Shown here: piece after piece, positions 7,746 to 16,357 of the stretch
Layout of the letters: each line of letters starts with the position of its first letter
Numbering within the stretch: position 1 is the first letter of the stretch
The notes under the pieces: generated by a model
The model's database searches: none
What the model was told of the DNA's origin: nothing
Seen by the model: only the letters and a program-made list of their open reading frames with translations
Translations under genes and position numbers: made by a program
Source: Actinomycetes bacterium
Lineage (GTDB): Bacteria > Actinomycetota > Acidimicrobiia > Acidimicrobiales > Ilumatobacteraceae
DNA: 64,000 bases
Direction of reading: 5' to 3'
Assembly: GCA_021414085.1 (NCBI GenBank)
Contig: JAIOPC010000017.1
Location: forward strand, 62,001-126,000

Positions 7746-8978
7746 GTGAATTCTCGTCCCCCCAACTCACGACCGAACCAGCCACGACGCCCGCAGTCTG
7801 GCGCGCCCCGGCAGCACGCGCCCCAGCCCGGTCGGCCGGCGGCGCGCCCCGCGGGTGCCCGTCCACCGGCCCGGCGCCCGGCACAGGCCGGCCACTCCTC
7901 GATGGGTCGCTGGACGCCCGTCTTCGCGTCGGCCGCTGTACTGGCTGTCGTCATCTTCGTGGGGTTCTCAGGCGGCGACAAGAACGAAGCGAGCAATACA
8001 ACTTTCGATCAGAACGCCGGCGCGGTCAACGAGTCGCTGACCGTTCCGAGCAGCATCGGCGAGCAGGTCGTGATCCCCACCGACCCGGCGGTCGAAAAGA
8101 CGCAGTTGACTTCTGAACTCAAGATCAACTCCTCGGGCCTGGCGGTTGCGGCCTTGCAGAACCGGCTGAAGGAATTGGCTTTCGATCCAGGTCCGGCCGA
8201 CGGTTACTTCGGCAACCAAACTCGCCAGGCGGTTTGGGCATTCGAGAAGCTGGTCCTTGGTACCCCGATGACGGAAGCGACCGGCCACGTCACCAACGAG
8301 ATGTGGCAGCTCATGCAGGACCCGATTGAGATTGCGCCACGCCGCGTGAAGGCAGTGACCTACAACCAGCGCCCCACGCACGCCGAGATCTATCTCGACA
8401 AGCAAGTCATGATCATCTTCACGGACGACAAGCCGGTGCTGATTACGCACATTTCTTCGGGCAGCGGCGAGACGTGGTGCGAGATCGTGACGTACAGCAT
8501 CGACGCGAAGGGCGAACCCTTGCCCGAGCCGCGCACTGCCGACGAGTGTGGCGAGTCCAAGACACCCGGCGGCGTGTTCTCGTTCTACCTCCGCTACGAG
8601 GGCAATCGCCAAGGGCCGTTGGGCGGTATGTGGAACCCCGTGTTCTTCAACTACGGCATCGCGGTGCATGGCGCCGACGAAGTTCCGCTGCACCCTGCCT
8701 CGCATGGTTGCATTCGCATCCCAAACAAGATCGCCGACTACTTCCCGAGTCTGGTGCAGAACAAAGACCGGGTGTACGTGTGGGATGGCATCAAGGAGCC
8801 CGAGGAATACTCCAAGGAAGAGAAGAAGCCACCGGGCAACTACCCCAACCCGGCCGCAACCACCAGCACGTCGACGACGGTGAAGAAGACCACCTCGACG
8901 ACTGTTGTGACGGCCACGACCATCGCGCCGACGACCACTCCATCCGCCACGACAACGACCGTCCCCACCACCTCTTGA
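7746..8978 (+). CDS. L,D-transpeptidase with peptidoglycan-binding domain (copy 1)
   Basis: Protein of 410 aa anchored with its N-terminus inside. Residues 1-55 are Pro/Arg/Ala-rich and cytoplasmic, followed by one membrane helix at about 57-74. A peptidoglycan_binding_1 repeat follows at about 118-190 (ALQNRLKELAFDPGPADGYFG). The YkuD catalytic domain spans about 210-345, with the signature HPASHGCIRIP carrying the catalytic Cys and His. The last 45 residues are a Thr-rich low-complexity tail. YkuD enzymes form 3-3 peptidoglycan crosslinks or attach proteins to the wall. The start is a GTG with GGAG five bases upstream. It is followed 16 nt later by a paralogue. Confidence 0.95.
   Translation: MNSRPPNSRPNQPRRPQSGAPRQHAPQPGRPAARPAGARPPARRPAQAGHSSMGRWTPVFASAAVLAVVIFVGFSGGDKNEASNTTFDQNAGAVNESLTVPSSIGEQVVIPTDPAVEKTQLTSELKINSSGLAVAALQNRLKELAFDPGPADGYFGNQTRQAVWAFEKLVLGTPMTEATGHVTNEMWQLMQDPIEIAPRRVKAVTYNQRPTHAEIYLDKQVMIIFTDDKPVLITHISSGSGETWCEIVTYSIDAKGEPLPEPRTADECGESKTPGGVFSFYLRYEGNRQGPLGGMWNPVFFNYGIAVHGADEVPLHPASHGCIRIPNKIADYFPSLVQNKDRVYVWDGIKEPEEYSKEEKKPPGNYPNPAATTSTSTTVKKTTSTTVVTATTIAPTTTPSATTTTVPTTS
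8868..8975 (+). repeat. Low-complexity ACC/ACG-rich tract coding a Thr-rich tail
   Basis: The 3' end of the first L,D-transpeptidase gene is made of Thr codons with Ser, Pro, Ala and Val interspersed. The tract is imperfect, without a fixed repeat unit, and resembles surface-protein linkers that may be O-glycosylated. Confidence 0.7.
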
Positions 8979-8994: not shown

Positions 8995-10155
8995 ATGACC
9001 GTTCGTCGAACGCTGCAAAGTCATCCGGTTGGGCGATGGACGCCGGTTCTCGCGGCGGGCGTGATGTTGACGGCGGTGGTGTTCGCTGGCTCGCGCAATG
9101 ACGATTCGTCGGCCGCTGCCACAACTACGGTCGGCTTCACGACCACAAGCGTGCTCGACACCACGACCAGCTCGGTGCGCGAGAACCCCGGCGACGTCGA
9201 CATCGGCACGGTTCCACCGAGCACGCAGCCGCAGGTCGTTATCCCGACGGATCCGGCAATCGTGAAGACGCAATTGGCGGCGTCGATCAAGTACAAGTCC
9301 AAGGGCGACGACGTGCTGTTGTTACAACAACGCCTCAAGGATCTCGGCTTCGATCCCGGGCCTATCGACGGCACCTTTGGGCGGGCCACGCAACAGGCGT
9401 TGTGGGCGTTTGAGAAGCTGATCTTGGGCACGCCGTCGGATGCGGCAACCGGCGTGCTGACCAACGAAATGTGGCAAACGATGCAAGACCCAATCGCGAT
9501 TCAGCCACTACGCGAAGTGGGCGAGGGCAAGACCCACATGGAGATCTTCCTCGACAAGCAGGTCGCCATCGTGTTCACCAACGACAAGCCGGTCTTGGTC
9601 ACGCACATCTCTTCGGGCACCGGCGAGACGTGGTGCGAGATTGCGAAGTACAACACCGACGATTTTGGCCAACCGTTGGAAGTGCCGATCGAGAAGGACA
9701 TCTGCGGCGTCTCGAAGACTCCGGGGGGCGTGTTCAAGTTCTATCGCCGTGTTGAGGGCGAGCGAATTGGTGCACTCGGCAGCATGTGGAACCCGGTGTA
9801 CTTCAACTACGGCATCGCCGTGCACGGCTCCAGGAACGTTCCGCTGCACCCGGCGTCCCACGGCTGCATCCGCATCTCAATGGACATCGCCGACTACTTC
9901 CCGAGTCTGGTGGCCAACGGCGACAAGGTGTACGTGTGGGATGGCGTCAAGGAACCCGAGGCGCAGACCAAAGCCGACCGCACCCCGCCTTTCAACTATC
10001 CCAACCCGGCGGCCACGACATCCACCACCAGCACCTCAACGACGCTGCCACCCAGCACGACCGCTGCACCCACGACCACGGCTGCGCCAACCACCACTAC
10101 GACGTCAAGCACGACAACCACGTCGACCTCGACAACGGTGCCAACACCGCCGTGA
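8995..10155 (+). CDS. L,D-transpeptidase with peptidoglycan-binding domain (copy 2)
   Basis: Paralogue of the preceding gene, 386 aa. It lacks the long Pro/Arg-rich cytoplasmic leader and starts MTVRRTLQSH. The membrane helix is at about 14-32, followed by a peptidoglycan_binding_1 repeat (LLLQQRLKDLGFDPGPIDGTFG) and a YkuD domain with HPASHGCIRIS. A Thr-rich tail of about 45 residues ends the protein. Shared stretches such as QVVIPTDPA, ALWAFEKLILGTP and GETWCEI show a tandem duplication. Both catalytic sites look intact, so the copies may differ in timing or partner. The start is the ATG at 8995. Confidence 0.94.
   Translation: MTVRRTLQSHPVGRWTPVLAAGVMLTAVVFAGSRNDDSSAAATTTVGFTTTSVLDTTTSSVRENPGDVDIGTVPPSTQPQVVIPTDPAIVKTQLAASIKYKSKGDDVLLLQQRLKDLGFDPGPIDGTFGRATQQALWAFEKLILGTPSDAATGVLTNEMWQTMQDPIAIQPLREVGEGKTHMEIFLDKQVAIVFTNDKPVLVTHISSGTGETWCEIAKYNTDDFGQPLEVPIEKDICGVSKTPGGVFKFYRRVEGERIGALGSMWNPVYFNYGIAVHGSRNVPLHPASHGCIRISMDIADYFPSLVANGDKVYVWDGVKEPEAQTKADRTPPFNYPNPAATTSTTSTSTTLPPSTTAAPTTTAAPTTTTTSSTTTTSTSTTVPTPP
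10015..10150 (+). repeat. Low-complexity Thr-codon tract (copy 2 tail)
   Basis: ACC/ACG/ACT-rich 3' end of the second L,D-transpeptidase gene, coding TTT, TST and AAPTTT-type strings. It parallels the tract at 8868-8975 but differs in sequence and length, as expected for fast-evolving low-complexity tails. Confidence 0.7.
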
Positions 10156-10169
10156 CCTAACTGGTTGAG

Positions 10170-11657
10170 TTACTGGCAGACGTTCAGTCCGCCGAGCACG
10201 CCCTTGCGGAATGCGTCGATCTTCTCGAAGGCGCTGCCGACCACGTTGGTGTCGGTGCTCACGTCGCTTCGGCCAACGGCCGTCACGACTGCTTCATCAA
10301 GATCGCCTGCCGAAAGTTGCAGCGTGTCCTCGCGAGCATTGAAATCGATGGGCGGCACGATGTACGCAACCCAAGCGCCCGTGAGGCAGTCGTTGAACAG
10401 TGCCCGTGTCTCGCCGGTGCGTGTGCTCGCTAGCGCCACCTGCACGGCCTCGCTGTAGGCGTTGGAGAACAGGTAGCCGACTGACATGTCGCCGGTGAGC
10501 TGATCAAGCGACAGCTCGAGCATCACGTCCTGGTCCCAATAAATGGTGTTGTCGCCCGGGCAATACAGGACGTTGCCTGAGTAAGCCGTTTCGTCGATGC
10601 CAGCGCACGACGGGAATGGACCACCGGTGGGGAATGGCACGAGCGTCGGTGGCGTGAACGCAACGGAGTTCGCCGCCGCCAGCTCAACCCAGAACAGCTG
10701 CAGGCTCAACGGAATCAGCGTGACAATGTCGACCGGGCCGTTAGTGGCATCGGGCGCCGGGTCGACCAGCGGCAGGTTGCCCGCGTTCGGGTCGCTTGGG
10801 TCGAACGGGATATCGACGAGGGGTGGCGGGTCGGTGAAGAACGGAACGCATCGCGTCGGACCGCCGACGAAGCCGTCTTGGAAGGCGCCGACGCGGTCGA
10901 AGCCGGTGCCGTGGGCGTTGGGGTCGTTGAGACCTTCACCCTCGATTGGGTCGCGGACGTAAATCATGGCGATCAGTCCGGCGCGCACATCGGCGTCGTC
11001 GAATGTGATCAGGTCGCTGCCACCGCTGGCAACATGTGCGGTCCACGCGCCGGCGAAGCAGTCGGCCTGCTGTTCTTTGTAGACCGTCTGGTTGTTCCAC
11101 TCGCCCGCACGCGCCTGAATGGCGTGGCCGAACTCGTGGGCCAACACGATGGCGACGGCCTCTTTGCCGAGCAGCTCGACAAGGCCAGGCAACGCGCCGG
11201 TGTCGTCGTATGCCATGAAGTCGCCATCGATGCAGTAGAACGCGGCGCCATCGGCAACGTCTTGATACGACGACTCGGGTTTGCCGCAGCCCGGGATTGG
11301 TGACTGTCGGTCGGGGTAGGCGGCGTAGATGCCACCGGACAGCGGTTCAAACGCCGCGCCGCCGTAGGCCTCGGGGAATGCTTCCGCCCAGAAGCTCTGG
11401 ATGTCGCCGAACGCGGCCGTGAGGAAGCCGTCGTATTCGGGGTGTTGCGGACCGGCCTCGCCGAAGTCGACCACGCCGTCGATCACTTCGTAGGTGCGCT
11501 CGACAGGCACGGTGTCGCCAGGTTGCGTGGACTCGGTGGGGATCAGGCCACCACCGTCTCTTTGCGAGCCGACGGCGGTGACGCCCGGTTCGGTGGCGCC
11601 GCAGGCGGCGGCGACGATGGCCAGTAAACCGGTGAGGAGAATGAAGCGACGTTGCAC
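10170..11657 (-). CDS. Neutral zinc metallopeptidase-like lipoprotein with an internal degenerate repeat
   Basis: Exported lipoprotein of 495 aa. The signal peptide ends in a lipobox, AAAC (Cys19). The first half carries a YpfJ/PF04228-type peptidase domain: HEFGH at 174-178 and, further on, EQQADCFAGAW, whose Glu is the expected third zinc ligand. The second half repeats the same pattern (LYCPGD, then NDCLTGAWVAY, then FEKIDAFRKGVLGG) but HExxH is replaced by NAYSE, so it looks like a dead copy. The GTG at 11657 was chosen because it places the signal peptide at the N-terminus; a GTG at 11675 is possible. It is divergent from the M24 peptidase gene. Confidence 0.85.
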   Translation of the reverse strand: MQRRFILLTGLLAIVAAACGATEPGVTAVGSQRDGGGLIPTESTQPGDTVPVERTYEVIDGVVDFGEAGPQHPEYDGFLTAAFGDIQSFWAEAFPEAYGGAAFEPLSGGIYAAYPDRQSPIPGCGKPESSYQDVADGAAFYCIDGDFMAYDDTGALPGLVELLGKEAVAIVLAHEFGHAIQARAGEWNNQTVYKEQQADCFAGAWTAHVASGGSDLITFDDADVRAGLIAMIYVRDPIEGEGLNDPNAHGTGFDRVGAFQDGFVGGPTRCVPFFTDPPPLVDIPFDPSDPNAGNLPLVDPAPDATNGPVDIVTLIPLSLQLFWVELAAANSVAFTPPTLVPFPTGGPFPSCAGIDETAYSGNVLYCPGDNTIYWDQDVMLELSLDQLTGDMSVGYLFSNAYSEAVQVALASTRTGETRALFNDCLTGAWVAYIVPPIDFNAREDTLQLSAGDLDEAVVTAVGRSDVSTDTNVVGSAFEKIDAFRKGVLGGLNVCQ

Positions 11658-14584: not shown

Positions 14585-15442
14585 ATGCCCAGACCTGTGT
14601 GGAGCGGAACAATCAGTTTCGGGCTCGTCGCCATCCCCATCAAGCTGTACAACGGCGTGAGCAAGAAGAGCGTGTCGTTCAACCAGCTCGACGACCGCAC
14701 CATGAGCCGTATCAAGTTACGCAAAGTGTCGGCCGAGAGTGGCGAAGAAGTCCCCGACGAGCACATCGTCAAGGGCTACGAAATCTCCAAGGGTCGCTAC
14801 GTCGTGGTTGATCCCGACGAGCTCGAGCCCTTCATTCCCAGCGCGACACGCAGTATCGATCTCGAAGAGTTCGTCGACCTGGACCAGATCGATCCGGTGT
14901 ATTTCGACTCCGCGTACATCGTCGCCCCCGACAAGACCCCTAAGCCATACGCGCTGCTCACACGCGCAATGGAGAAGGCTGGCAAGGTCGCGCTGGGTCG
15001 ATTCGTAATGCGCAACAAGCAGTACATCGCCGCGCTGCGGCCAGTCGACGGGCATTTGATGATGAGCACGATGGTGTTCGCCGACGAGGTAAATGCACCG
15101 TCAGCGATCGACGAGCTGGCCGAGCTCGACGATGTGAAGGTGAGCGACAAGGAAGTGCTGATGGCCGAAGCGCTGGTCGATTCGTTGTCGGCGGCCTTCG
15201 AACCGAACAAGTACCGCGACGAATATCGCGAGCAAGTGCTCGATCTGATCGAGCGCAAAGCGGCTGGCGAAGAATTCCAGTTGCCCGCGGCCACCACTTC
15301 AGCGCCAGCAGTAGTCGACCTGATGGCGGCGCTCGAGGCCAGCGTCAAAGCCGCGAAGAACGCACGCTCGCGACATCCCGCCGGTGGTCCCGAGGCTGTG
15401 GAGGCCGACGCCGCGCCAAAGCGTGTGCGAAAGTCGGCGTAG
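14585..15442 (+). CDS. ku: Non-homologous end-joining protein Ku
   Basis: DNA-end-binding protein of 285 aa, normal for bacterial Ku. It begins with the canonical MPRPVWSGTISFGLVAIPIKL and carries the Ku core, including VSAESGEEV, EEFVDLDQIDPVYFD and KPYALLTRAM. It ends in a basic Lys/Arg-rich tail (KNARSRHPA, KRVRKSA) as in Ku proteins that recruit LigD and bind DNA. It forms a ring-shaped homodimer on double-strand ends and recruits polymerase and ligase. The LigD-polymerase gene starts 6 nt after its stop, giving an NHEJ operon. Confidence 0.97.
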   Translation: MPRPVWSGTISFGLVAIPIKLYNGVSKKSVSFNQLDDRTMSRIKLRKVSAESGEEVPDEHIVKGYEISKGRYVVVDPDELEPFIPSATRSIDLEEFVDLDQIDPVYFDSAYIVAPDKTPKPYALLTRAMEKAGKVALGRFVMRNKQYIAALRPVDGHLMMSTMVFADEVNAPSAIDELAELDDVKVSDKEVLMAEALVDSLSAAFEPNKYRDEYREQVLDLIERKAAGEEFQLPAATTSAPAVVDLMAALEASVKAAKNARSRHPAGGPEAVEADAAPKRVRKSA

Positions 15443-15448
15443 CCCGCG

Positions 15449-16357
15449 GTGGCGACTAGCACGCGAACGACCGTCAAGGTCGGCGAACGCGAACTGAGTG
15501 TCAGCAACCTCGACAAGGTTCTGTATCCCGAAGCTGGCACGACTAAGTCGCAGATCATTGAGTACTACGCGCGCATCGCGCCGGTGATGATCCCGCACCT
15601 CACCGATCGTTGCATCACCTTGAAGCGCTTCCCCGATGGCGTTGAGAAGGATGGCTTCTTCGAGAAGCGTTGCCCGAAGCATCGCCCCGAGTGGGTTGGC
15701 ACGGCAGTTGGTCCCGGTGATCGGGGTGGCGACATTGGTTACTGCCTAATGGACGAGCCGGCGTCGTTGGTGTGGGCTGCCAACATGGCCGCGCTAGAAC
15801 TGCATGTGCCGATGGCGTTGGCTGAGGATCTCGAAACACCGCGTGCGGTTGTCTTCGACTTCGACCCAGGCGCACCGGCCGCCATGAAAGAGTGTTGCGA
15901 GATCGCGGTGTTGGTGCGCGACGTGCTTGCCTCGGTGAACTTGCAAGGTTTCGCGAAGACGTCGGGTTCGAAGGGGTTGCAGCTGTACGTGCCGCTGAAC
16001 ACGCCCTGCACGCACCAGCATGCAGCCGACTTCGCGCTAGCCGTCGGTCAGTTGCTGGAGCACCAACACCGTGACCGAGTCACGACGACGATGGCGAAGG
16101 CGGTGCGCCCGGCGAAGATCTTCGTCGATTGGAGCCAGAACGCACGCTTCAAGACGACGATCGGTGTGTACTCGATGCGCGCCCGGCCAGAACCAACTTG
16201 CAGCACGCCGGTGACATGGGACGAGGTTGCGGCCTGTGCTGCGGGTGGCCCCGAATTGCGTTTCCTGTGGCACGAAGTGTTGGCACGTGTGGAGGAACAC
16301 GGCGACTTGTTCGCACCGGTGCTGACGCTGCAACAGACGCTTCCAGGTGGTGGGTGA
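15449..16357 (+). CDS. ligD: Stand-alone LigD-type NHEJ polymerase/primase
   Basis: Protein of 302 aa covering only the archaeo-eukaryotic primase-like polymerase domain of LigD; no ligase or 3'-phosphoesterase domain is attached. Seen are LDKVLYPEAGTTK at the N-terminus, DRCITLKRFPDGV, the catalytic Asp pair in VFDFDPG, the nucleotide-binding KTSGSKGLQLYVPL, and the third acidic motif in KIFVDWSQN. It fills gaps and adds nucleotides, preferably ribonucleotides, at Ku-bound ends. The ligase must be encoded elsewhere. The start is the GTG at 15449. Confidence 0.94.
   Translation: MATSTRTTVKVGERELSVSNLDKVLYPEAGTTKSQIIEYYARIAPVMIPHLTDRCITLKRFPDGVEKDGFFEKRCPKHRPEWVGTAVGPGDRGGDIGYCLMDEPASLVWAANMAALELHVPMALAEDLETPRAVVFDFDPGAPAAMKECCEIAVLVRDVLASVNLQGFAKTSGSKGLQLYVPLNTPCTHQHAADFALAVGQLLEHQHRDRVTTTMAKAVRPAKIFVDWSQNARFKTTIGVYSMRARPEPTCSTPVTWDEVAACAAGGPELRFLWHEVLARVEEHGDLFAPVLTLQQTLPGGG

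Follow-up and report, generated by a model that had tools for sequence, protein, structure and literature searches.

YpfJ of K. pneumoniae (KPN_02809) carries one zinc per molecule and is inhibited by EDTA and DTT, and its H171S mutant loses almost all activity on casein, according to PMC3269727. The protein studied here is encoded in the window, by which we mean the whole stretch of 64,000 nucleotides that was analysed. It is like YpfJ in that its N-terminal half falls in the same Pfam family and shares the HExGH...E..AD motif and cysteines, and it differs from the single-domain YpfJ by a second, inactive domain and by a lipoprotein-type signal. The mycobacterial LpqM proteins (Rv0419, of about 500 aa, MSMEG_4913, MAB_1470c and MAB_1466c) are also like the window protein, since they combine a lipobox with HExxH. 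M. smegmatis reportedly requires LpqM to conjugate (Nguyen 2009, cited by PMC4202316), and the deletion of two LpqM-like lipoproteins left M. abscessus impaired in macrophages (accessible text of PMC11064476). The same text marks the lipobox and HExxH in the LpqM-like proteins, with one zinc motif and no description of a second domain, and the knock-out PCR fragments that it gives imply that about 1.4–1.5 kb were removed, a length with room for two domains. Among the likely members of the tandem group described below LpqM is the best characterised, as compared by description and not by sequence.

A few families are known to have pseudopeptidase halves (PMC11266112). In the M16 peptidases the inactive homologous half is critical for the whole enzyme, and M16A and M16C resemble the window protein in joining an active and an inactive homologous half in one chain, whereas the zinc motif of M16, including the mitochondrial processing peptidase, is the inverted HxxEH and the family is another one (PMC11266112). 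We infer that this likeness is parallel and not inherited; the M16 inactive halves are the closest functional precedent. Carboxypeptidase D (M14) also has tandem peptidase domains with an inactive third and last one (PMC11266112), but it belongs to a different family with a different zinc motif, is eukaryotic and has two active domains. For the elastase FP0506 of Flavobacterium psychrophilum, PF04228 was the first HHpred match and M48 the second, and the available portion of PMC6414381, on whose description alone we compare it, mentions no second domain. A second inactive domain in the PF04228 family was not named in the titles and abstract openings listed by searches of the open-licence literature.

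The tandem peptidase gene and its two halves

The gene occupies positions 10170–11657 on the minus strand, as a frame open from a GTG start to the stop codon at 10170–10172, with a coding part (10173–11657) that specifies 495 aa; the start was placed at the point where the alignments of homologues begin. A scan at the gene found no promoter-like site, and a terminator scan found one terminator-like site, on the plus strand, with shuffled sequences giving as many. The signal sequence and the presumed lipobox cysteine C19 are encoded at 11601–11657 (minus strand), with a helix predicted at residues 2–19 at low confidence. Since the hydrophobic N-terminal segment ends in C19, which is nearly invariant among relatives (at least 90% of 36 alignment rows), the peptidase is likely a lipoprotein.

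Compared with PF04228 (Zn_peptidase), the whole protein scored 45.5 bits against a curated cut-off of 23.2, with the best stretch at residues 140–270. Its score of 71.8 bits with NF050010, the equivalog model of KPN_02809/YpfJ, lies far under the cut-off of 250 bits. Another contig of the same genome encodes an ordinary single-domain YpfJ-type peptidase (G000:C13:18275–19126), with 247 bits against Pfam PF04228.

The N half (residues 68–275; 10833–11456, minus strand) scores above the PF04228 cut-off and would be the catalytic domain. It contains the zinc-binding and catalytic motif HEFGH at residues 174–178 (11124–11138, minus strand) and, at the start of EQQADCFAGAW (residues 195–205), the EQQADC segment (11058–11075, minus strand) with the presumed third zinc ligand E195 followed by D199 and C200; FDRVGAFQDGF begins at residue 253. 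Every one of the 36 rows of the window's family has HE[FYW]GH and EQQ[AS]DC in its N half. We also collected 95 distinct tandem proteins (see below), one of which (L056) is cut before the N-half motifs, so that N-site counts are given out of 94. H174, E175, H178, E195, D199, H249 and R255 are each found in all 94 of these N halves. Zinc binding and proteolysis by the N half would follow by analogy with the PF04228 family.

The C half (residues 303–495; 10173–10751, minus strand) is probably a pseudopeptidase domain that shares its descent and its predicted fold with the N half. In place of HExxH it has NAYSE at residues 399–403 (10449–10463, minus strand), aligned to HEFGH, and in ALFNDCLTGAW, residues 419–429 (10371–10403, minus strand), the third ligand is replaced by A419 while DC and GAW are kept, so that all three zinc ligands are gone. 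NDCLTGAW begins at residue 422 and FEKIDAFRKG at 477. None of the 36 rows of the family alignment has histidine at either ligand position of its C half, and the second of these positions is Glu or Asp in every row. Taken alone, the C half scored 17.9 bits against PF04228 (E 0.0023), under the curated cut-off of 23.2 bits.

Other positions of the C half are strongly conserved. D390 and D452 occur in 94 of 94 C halves and G389 in 93 of 94. GDLDE, the hallmark of the C half (residues 451–455; 10293–10307, minus strand), is kept at G451 in 90, D452 in 94, L453 in 90, D454 in 86 and E455 in 92 of the 94. The cysteines C351, C366, C424 and C494 (89, 89, 93 and 91 of 94) match C124, C142, C200 and C270 of the N half (93, 84, 94 and 94 of 94), and these matched cysteines may form disulphides. 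Nei-Gojobori dN/dS values for six pairs of relatives ranged from 0.159 to 0.252 in the N half and from 0.151 to 0.560 in the C half. In three of the six pairs constraint was weaker on the C half than on the N half, by a factor of about two in two pairs (0.489 and 0.560), and in the other three its dN/dS was equal to or below that of the N half. Because both halves retain the four cysteines and the core glycine and aspartate residues, the C half has the appearance of a pseudopeptidase that is being maintained, not of debris.

Relationship between the two halves

To compare the two halves we aligned residues 56–276 with residues 300–495 by hhalign, using an alignment of 36 rows (the window protein and 35 relatives). 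The halves matched with a probability of 98.8, an E-value of 5.6e-17 and a score of 110.8 over 177 columns, well above the background given by 50 column shuffles of the C half (at most 21.6) and by the reversed C half (17.2). The 495-aa predicted lipoprotein is thus, as judged from its sequence, two tandem PF04228 (YpfJ-type) domains. The same comparison in four groups of tandem proteins gave scores of 114.4, 49.2, 349.1 and 227.9, with shuffled maxima of 19.6–22.6; the weakest value belongs to the set from mycobacteria and group f114 (at most 22.3 in 30 shuffles) and the strongest to group f62. Five unrelated proteins from the window, run as controls in this comparison, scored 12.5–20.5. The identity between halves is graded, from 52% in f62 through 34% to 23% both in the window's family and in the mycobacterial/f114 set. 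A cross-match of the family N half with the mycobacterial/f114 C half was weak (probability 57, score 35.2).

An earlier note on this DNA had proposed a tandem duplication with an inactivated second domain, and the profiles, the predicted structure and the 95 tandem proteins all agree with it. The profile alignment puts NAYSE opposite HEFGH and NDCLTGAW opposite ADCFAGAW, in agreement with the note. The note's repeated YCxGD is only partly in register: the YC pairs align, but the GD of YCIDGD and that of YCPGDN occupy different columns.

Predicted structure

AlphaFold2 without templates modelled the full protein with a mean pLDDT of 88.2 and a pTM of 0.86, and the C half alone with 92.4 and 0.90. 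The linker (residues 276–302; 10752–10832, minus strand) is modelled as ordered, with block means of pLDDT of 83–90 over residues 271–300 in the full-protein model, and its F285, G293 and N294 are each at least 90% conserved in the 36 rows. This ordered, conserved linker and the pTM of the full model suggest one fixed arrangement of the two halves.

The C-half model was compared with solved structures by VIA-align, with Z values that are middling by the tool's own note. The best match listed was BepA (M48; Z 8.8, rmsd 3.8, 132 residues aligned), followed by PepO (8.1 and 8.0), a Haemonchus glycoprotein (7.5), the Zn-dependent peptidase 3c37 (7.5), a putative lipoprotein of Colwellia (7.4), YbeY (7.4), and then, among others, ERAP1 and archaeal metallopeptidase zymogens. 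The leading rows are mostly zinc metallopeptidases. Foldseek found no solved structure for the full model at E of 0.001 or below (best E 1.3), and phmmer found no relative of the window protein in the PDB. Given the middling Z values and the lack of a Foldseek match at E 0.001, the fold match backs the sequence result but would not be sufficient by itself.

Distribution of the two-domain form

Of the 101 genomes in the window's family, 50 gave a match at E 0.001, and in 47 of the 101 the match extends across both halves (in G012 in two pieces); contig ends truncate the matches of G035 and G054, and the match of G087 is single-domain only. The tandem form was also found elsewhere in the window's class. 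Outside the class, we examined a phylum sample of 396 genomes with up to eight candidates scored per genome, and among the matches listed the tandem form is confined to group f114, where it occurs in 12 of the 14 genomes listed with a match; G512 and G831 have three tandem genes each.

On plasmids, 38 records matched the window protein. Eleven of them, from Mycobacterium (6) and Mycolicibacterium (5), match over at least 80% of the query with 28–32% identity, and the remaining 27 cover 26–45% of it, in the N half. A DNA comparison of one f114 locus with plasmids yielded no mycobacterial match among the organisms counted, and the tandem examples with organism names are those of the plasmid records. 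The statement of the earlier note that such proteins normally have one domain fits these 27 N-half records. Since the two-domain form is common in the window's family and on mycobacterial plasmids, the window protein is not an isolated case: the tandem is a subfamily design that occurs in the window's class and in mycobacteria. When three tandem proteins of f114 or mycobacteria were scanned, Pfam and NCBIfam marked the N half only.

All six Mycobacterium/Mycolicibacterium plasmid copies whose flanks were inspected (L115, L116, L117, L143, L144 and L145) have genes annotated as 'sensor domain-containing' nearby, and five of the six also have an FHA-domain gene. On an M. arabiense plasmid (L117:9852–12004) the tandem gene is adjoined by two short 'neutral zinc metallopeptidase' genes, perhaps a split second copy.

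Variation of the second zinc site and origin of the duplication

The 95 distinct tandem proteins comprise the window protein, sets of 14, 21, 27, 18 and 11, and three from plasmids; 46 of them are less than 55% identical to each other. The loci of the sets of 27, 18 and 11 were found with the C-half profile and the best ones were taken, so the collection is biased to C halves like those of the window's family. All 94 proteins that include the N half have an intact site there, and one C half in 95, that of L061, retains the complete zinc triad. The C-half zinc positions vary widely among the other proteins, and single residues are kept here and there: histidine at position 399 in three more, histidine at 403 in one and glutamate at 400 in six. 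Three further plasmid proteins have an intact N site and a lost C site.

The exception, L061:1495–3024, has HExxH and the third glutamate in both halves and comes from a genome with 6% contamination; its N terminus resembles a membrane helix more closely than it does a lipoprotein signal. We considered it as a protein with two live halves and set this aside: its C half keeps H, E, H and E, but without an equivalent of the otherwise invariant H249. Because that equivalent is missing, the L061 C half may bind zinc without being a normal enzyme.

After exclusion of the active-site columns, a domain tree was built by a quick method from 12 single-domain proteins, 46 N halves and 46 C halves. All 46 C halves lie on one side of a branch with an SH-aLRT of 94, short of a star, and the single-domain proteins stand beside the N halves; the N halves need two changes on the tree, since L084_N falls apart. 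Under AU tests a separate duplication stayed acceptable both for the window's family (p 0.072) and for L061 (p 0.055). From the tree, a single old duplication is favoured. L061_C groups (97, starred) with L070_C, in which the site is gone; should this grouping hold and regain be excluded, the site would have been lost more than once.

We also considered a reciprocal loss, in which the C halves keep exactly what the N halves lost. This seemed to be the case on the 12 single-domain rows, a pattern that is biased because seven of them were found with the C-half profile. The less biased set has 39 single-domain rows, 30 of them found through PF04228 and nine plasmid genes found with the whole window protein. 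Of the 57 columns conserved in at least 80% of these rows, 13 were kept in the N half and lost in the C half and one the reverse, at a difference of 40 points, and the idea was rejected in its general form. Aspartate at 390 is present in 46 of 46 C halves, 18 of 46 N halves and 24 of the 39 single-domain rows, and glutamate at 455 in 44 of 46, 5 of 46 and 23 of 39, with aspartate in 11 more single-domain rows. D390 and E455 remain a partial case of reciprocal loss.

Role of the inactive half

The arrangement that best explains the data, and that we hold to be somewhat probable as a whole, is a covalent pair of an active and an inactive half, with the dead half shaping the access of substrates or acting as a gate to it. 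An extracytoplasmic, probably lipid-anchored YpfJ-type zinc peptidase would have arisen by tandem duplication. Its N half would be the working enzyme, with HExxH and the distal glutamate binding zinc, and would cleave proteins outside the membrane. Zinc binding and catalysis would have been lost from the C half, which would have kept its fold, its four cysteines and its GD...GDLDE core and would now be an integral, inactive partner packed rigidly onto the N half, most likely as part of the substrate-binding groove or as a gate to it, as in the M16 peptidases. As this architecture is found again in many actinobacteria, mycobacteria among them, the inactive half probably assists the active one.

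The same pattern of data would be produced if the C half acted otherwise. It could be a free-standing binding module derived from a peptidase, for the cell wall, a partner protein or the substrate, that does not act on the N half, a reading that we find rather unlikely. An L,D-transpeptidase gene lies downstream in 13 of 14 loci of the window's family, as would fit such a module, but this neighbour was not seen in 23 loci outside the family, so that it may reflect simple shared gene order, and the conserved, ordered linker also argues against such a module. The C half could instead be an inhibitory latency domain that keeps the active site of the N half shielded until it is freed by a partner or by a cut. 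One of two homologous domains could block or cap the other, and the high pTM fits a tightly packed pair, but the ordered linker with conserved residues does not suggest a hinge or a cleavage site, and we regard such latency as quite unlikely. Both alternatives stand beside the preferred reading of a partner that shapes or gates access.

Two further readings appear far less probable. In a decaying relic without function the catalytic positions would vary freely, as they do, and the halves of the mycobacterial/f114 set, with their score of 49.2, are harder to align. However, the C half is kept in 95 tandem proteins, with the two aspartates invariant and the four cysteines in 89–93 of 94, it is modelled confidently, and its dN/dS is below 1 in all six pairs; since it is under purifying selection, the relic reading is disfavoured and we think it very improbable. 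It is also hard to credit that the C half has become an enzyme in its own right, with its active site rebuilt for another metal or reaction. Its acidic residue at the second histidine position in all family rows and its nearly invariant GD and GDLDE would be compatible with that, but the old-site positions have no common new pattern across the 95 proteins, and D390 and the acidic residue at 455, common in single-domain members too, look structural.

A wider form of the preferred reading, of an active half paired with an inactive partner, is possible, and we put it forward only tentatively. An actinobacterial subfamily of gluzincin type, including LpqM, would consist of covalent enzyme/pseudoenzyme pairs from one old duplication, with a design like that of M16 reached independently. 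The dead half would complete or gate the active site, and the C half would have kept the GD...GDLDE core that is common in single-domain members and that most N halves dropped. If this were true of LpqM, the C-terminal half of a protein linked to conjugation and intracellular survival would be a pseudopeptidase that has so far gone unread. That 95 distinct related bacterial proteins keep one live and one dead copy per chain makes the role of the dead half a testable question.

Gene neighbourhood

Two adjacent and similar L,D-transpeptidase genes (YkuD with PG_binding_1) lie on the plus strand at 7746–8978 and 8995–10155 and end just beside the peptidase gene. In the 13 family loci the L,D-transpeptidase gene is in the opposite orientation at a distance of less than 0.1 to about 3 kb, and in the 14th the stretch ends at the peptidase gene; the 23 loci outside the family include some short ones. 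We considered a functional link between the peptidase and the L,D-transpeptidase and, given these counts within and outside the family, treated the association as shared gene order, so that the gene context gives a weak hint of a role in the cell envelope. Further along the window, at 14585–16357 on the plus strand, genes for Ku and a LigD primase-polymerase stand side by side, a bacterial end-joining set.
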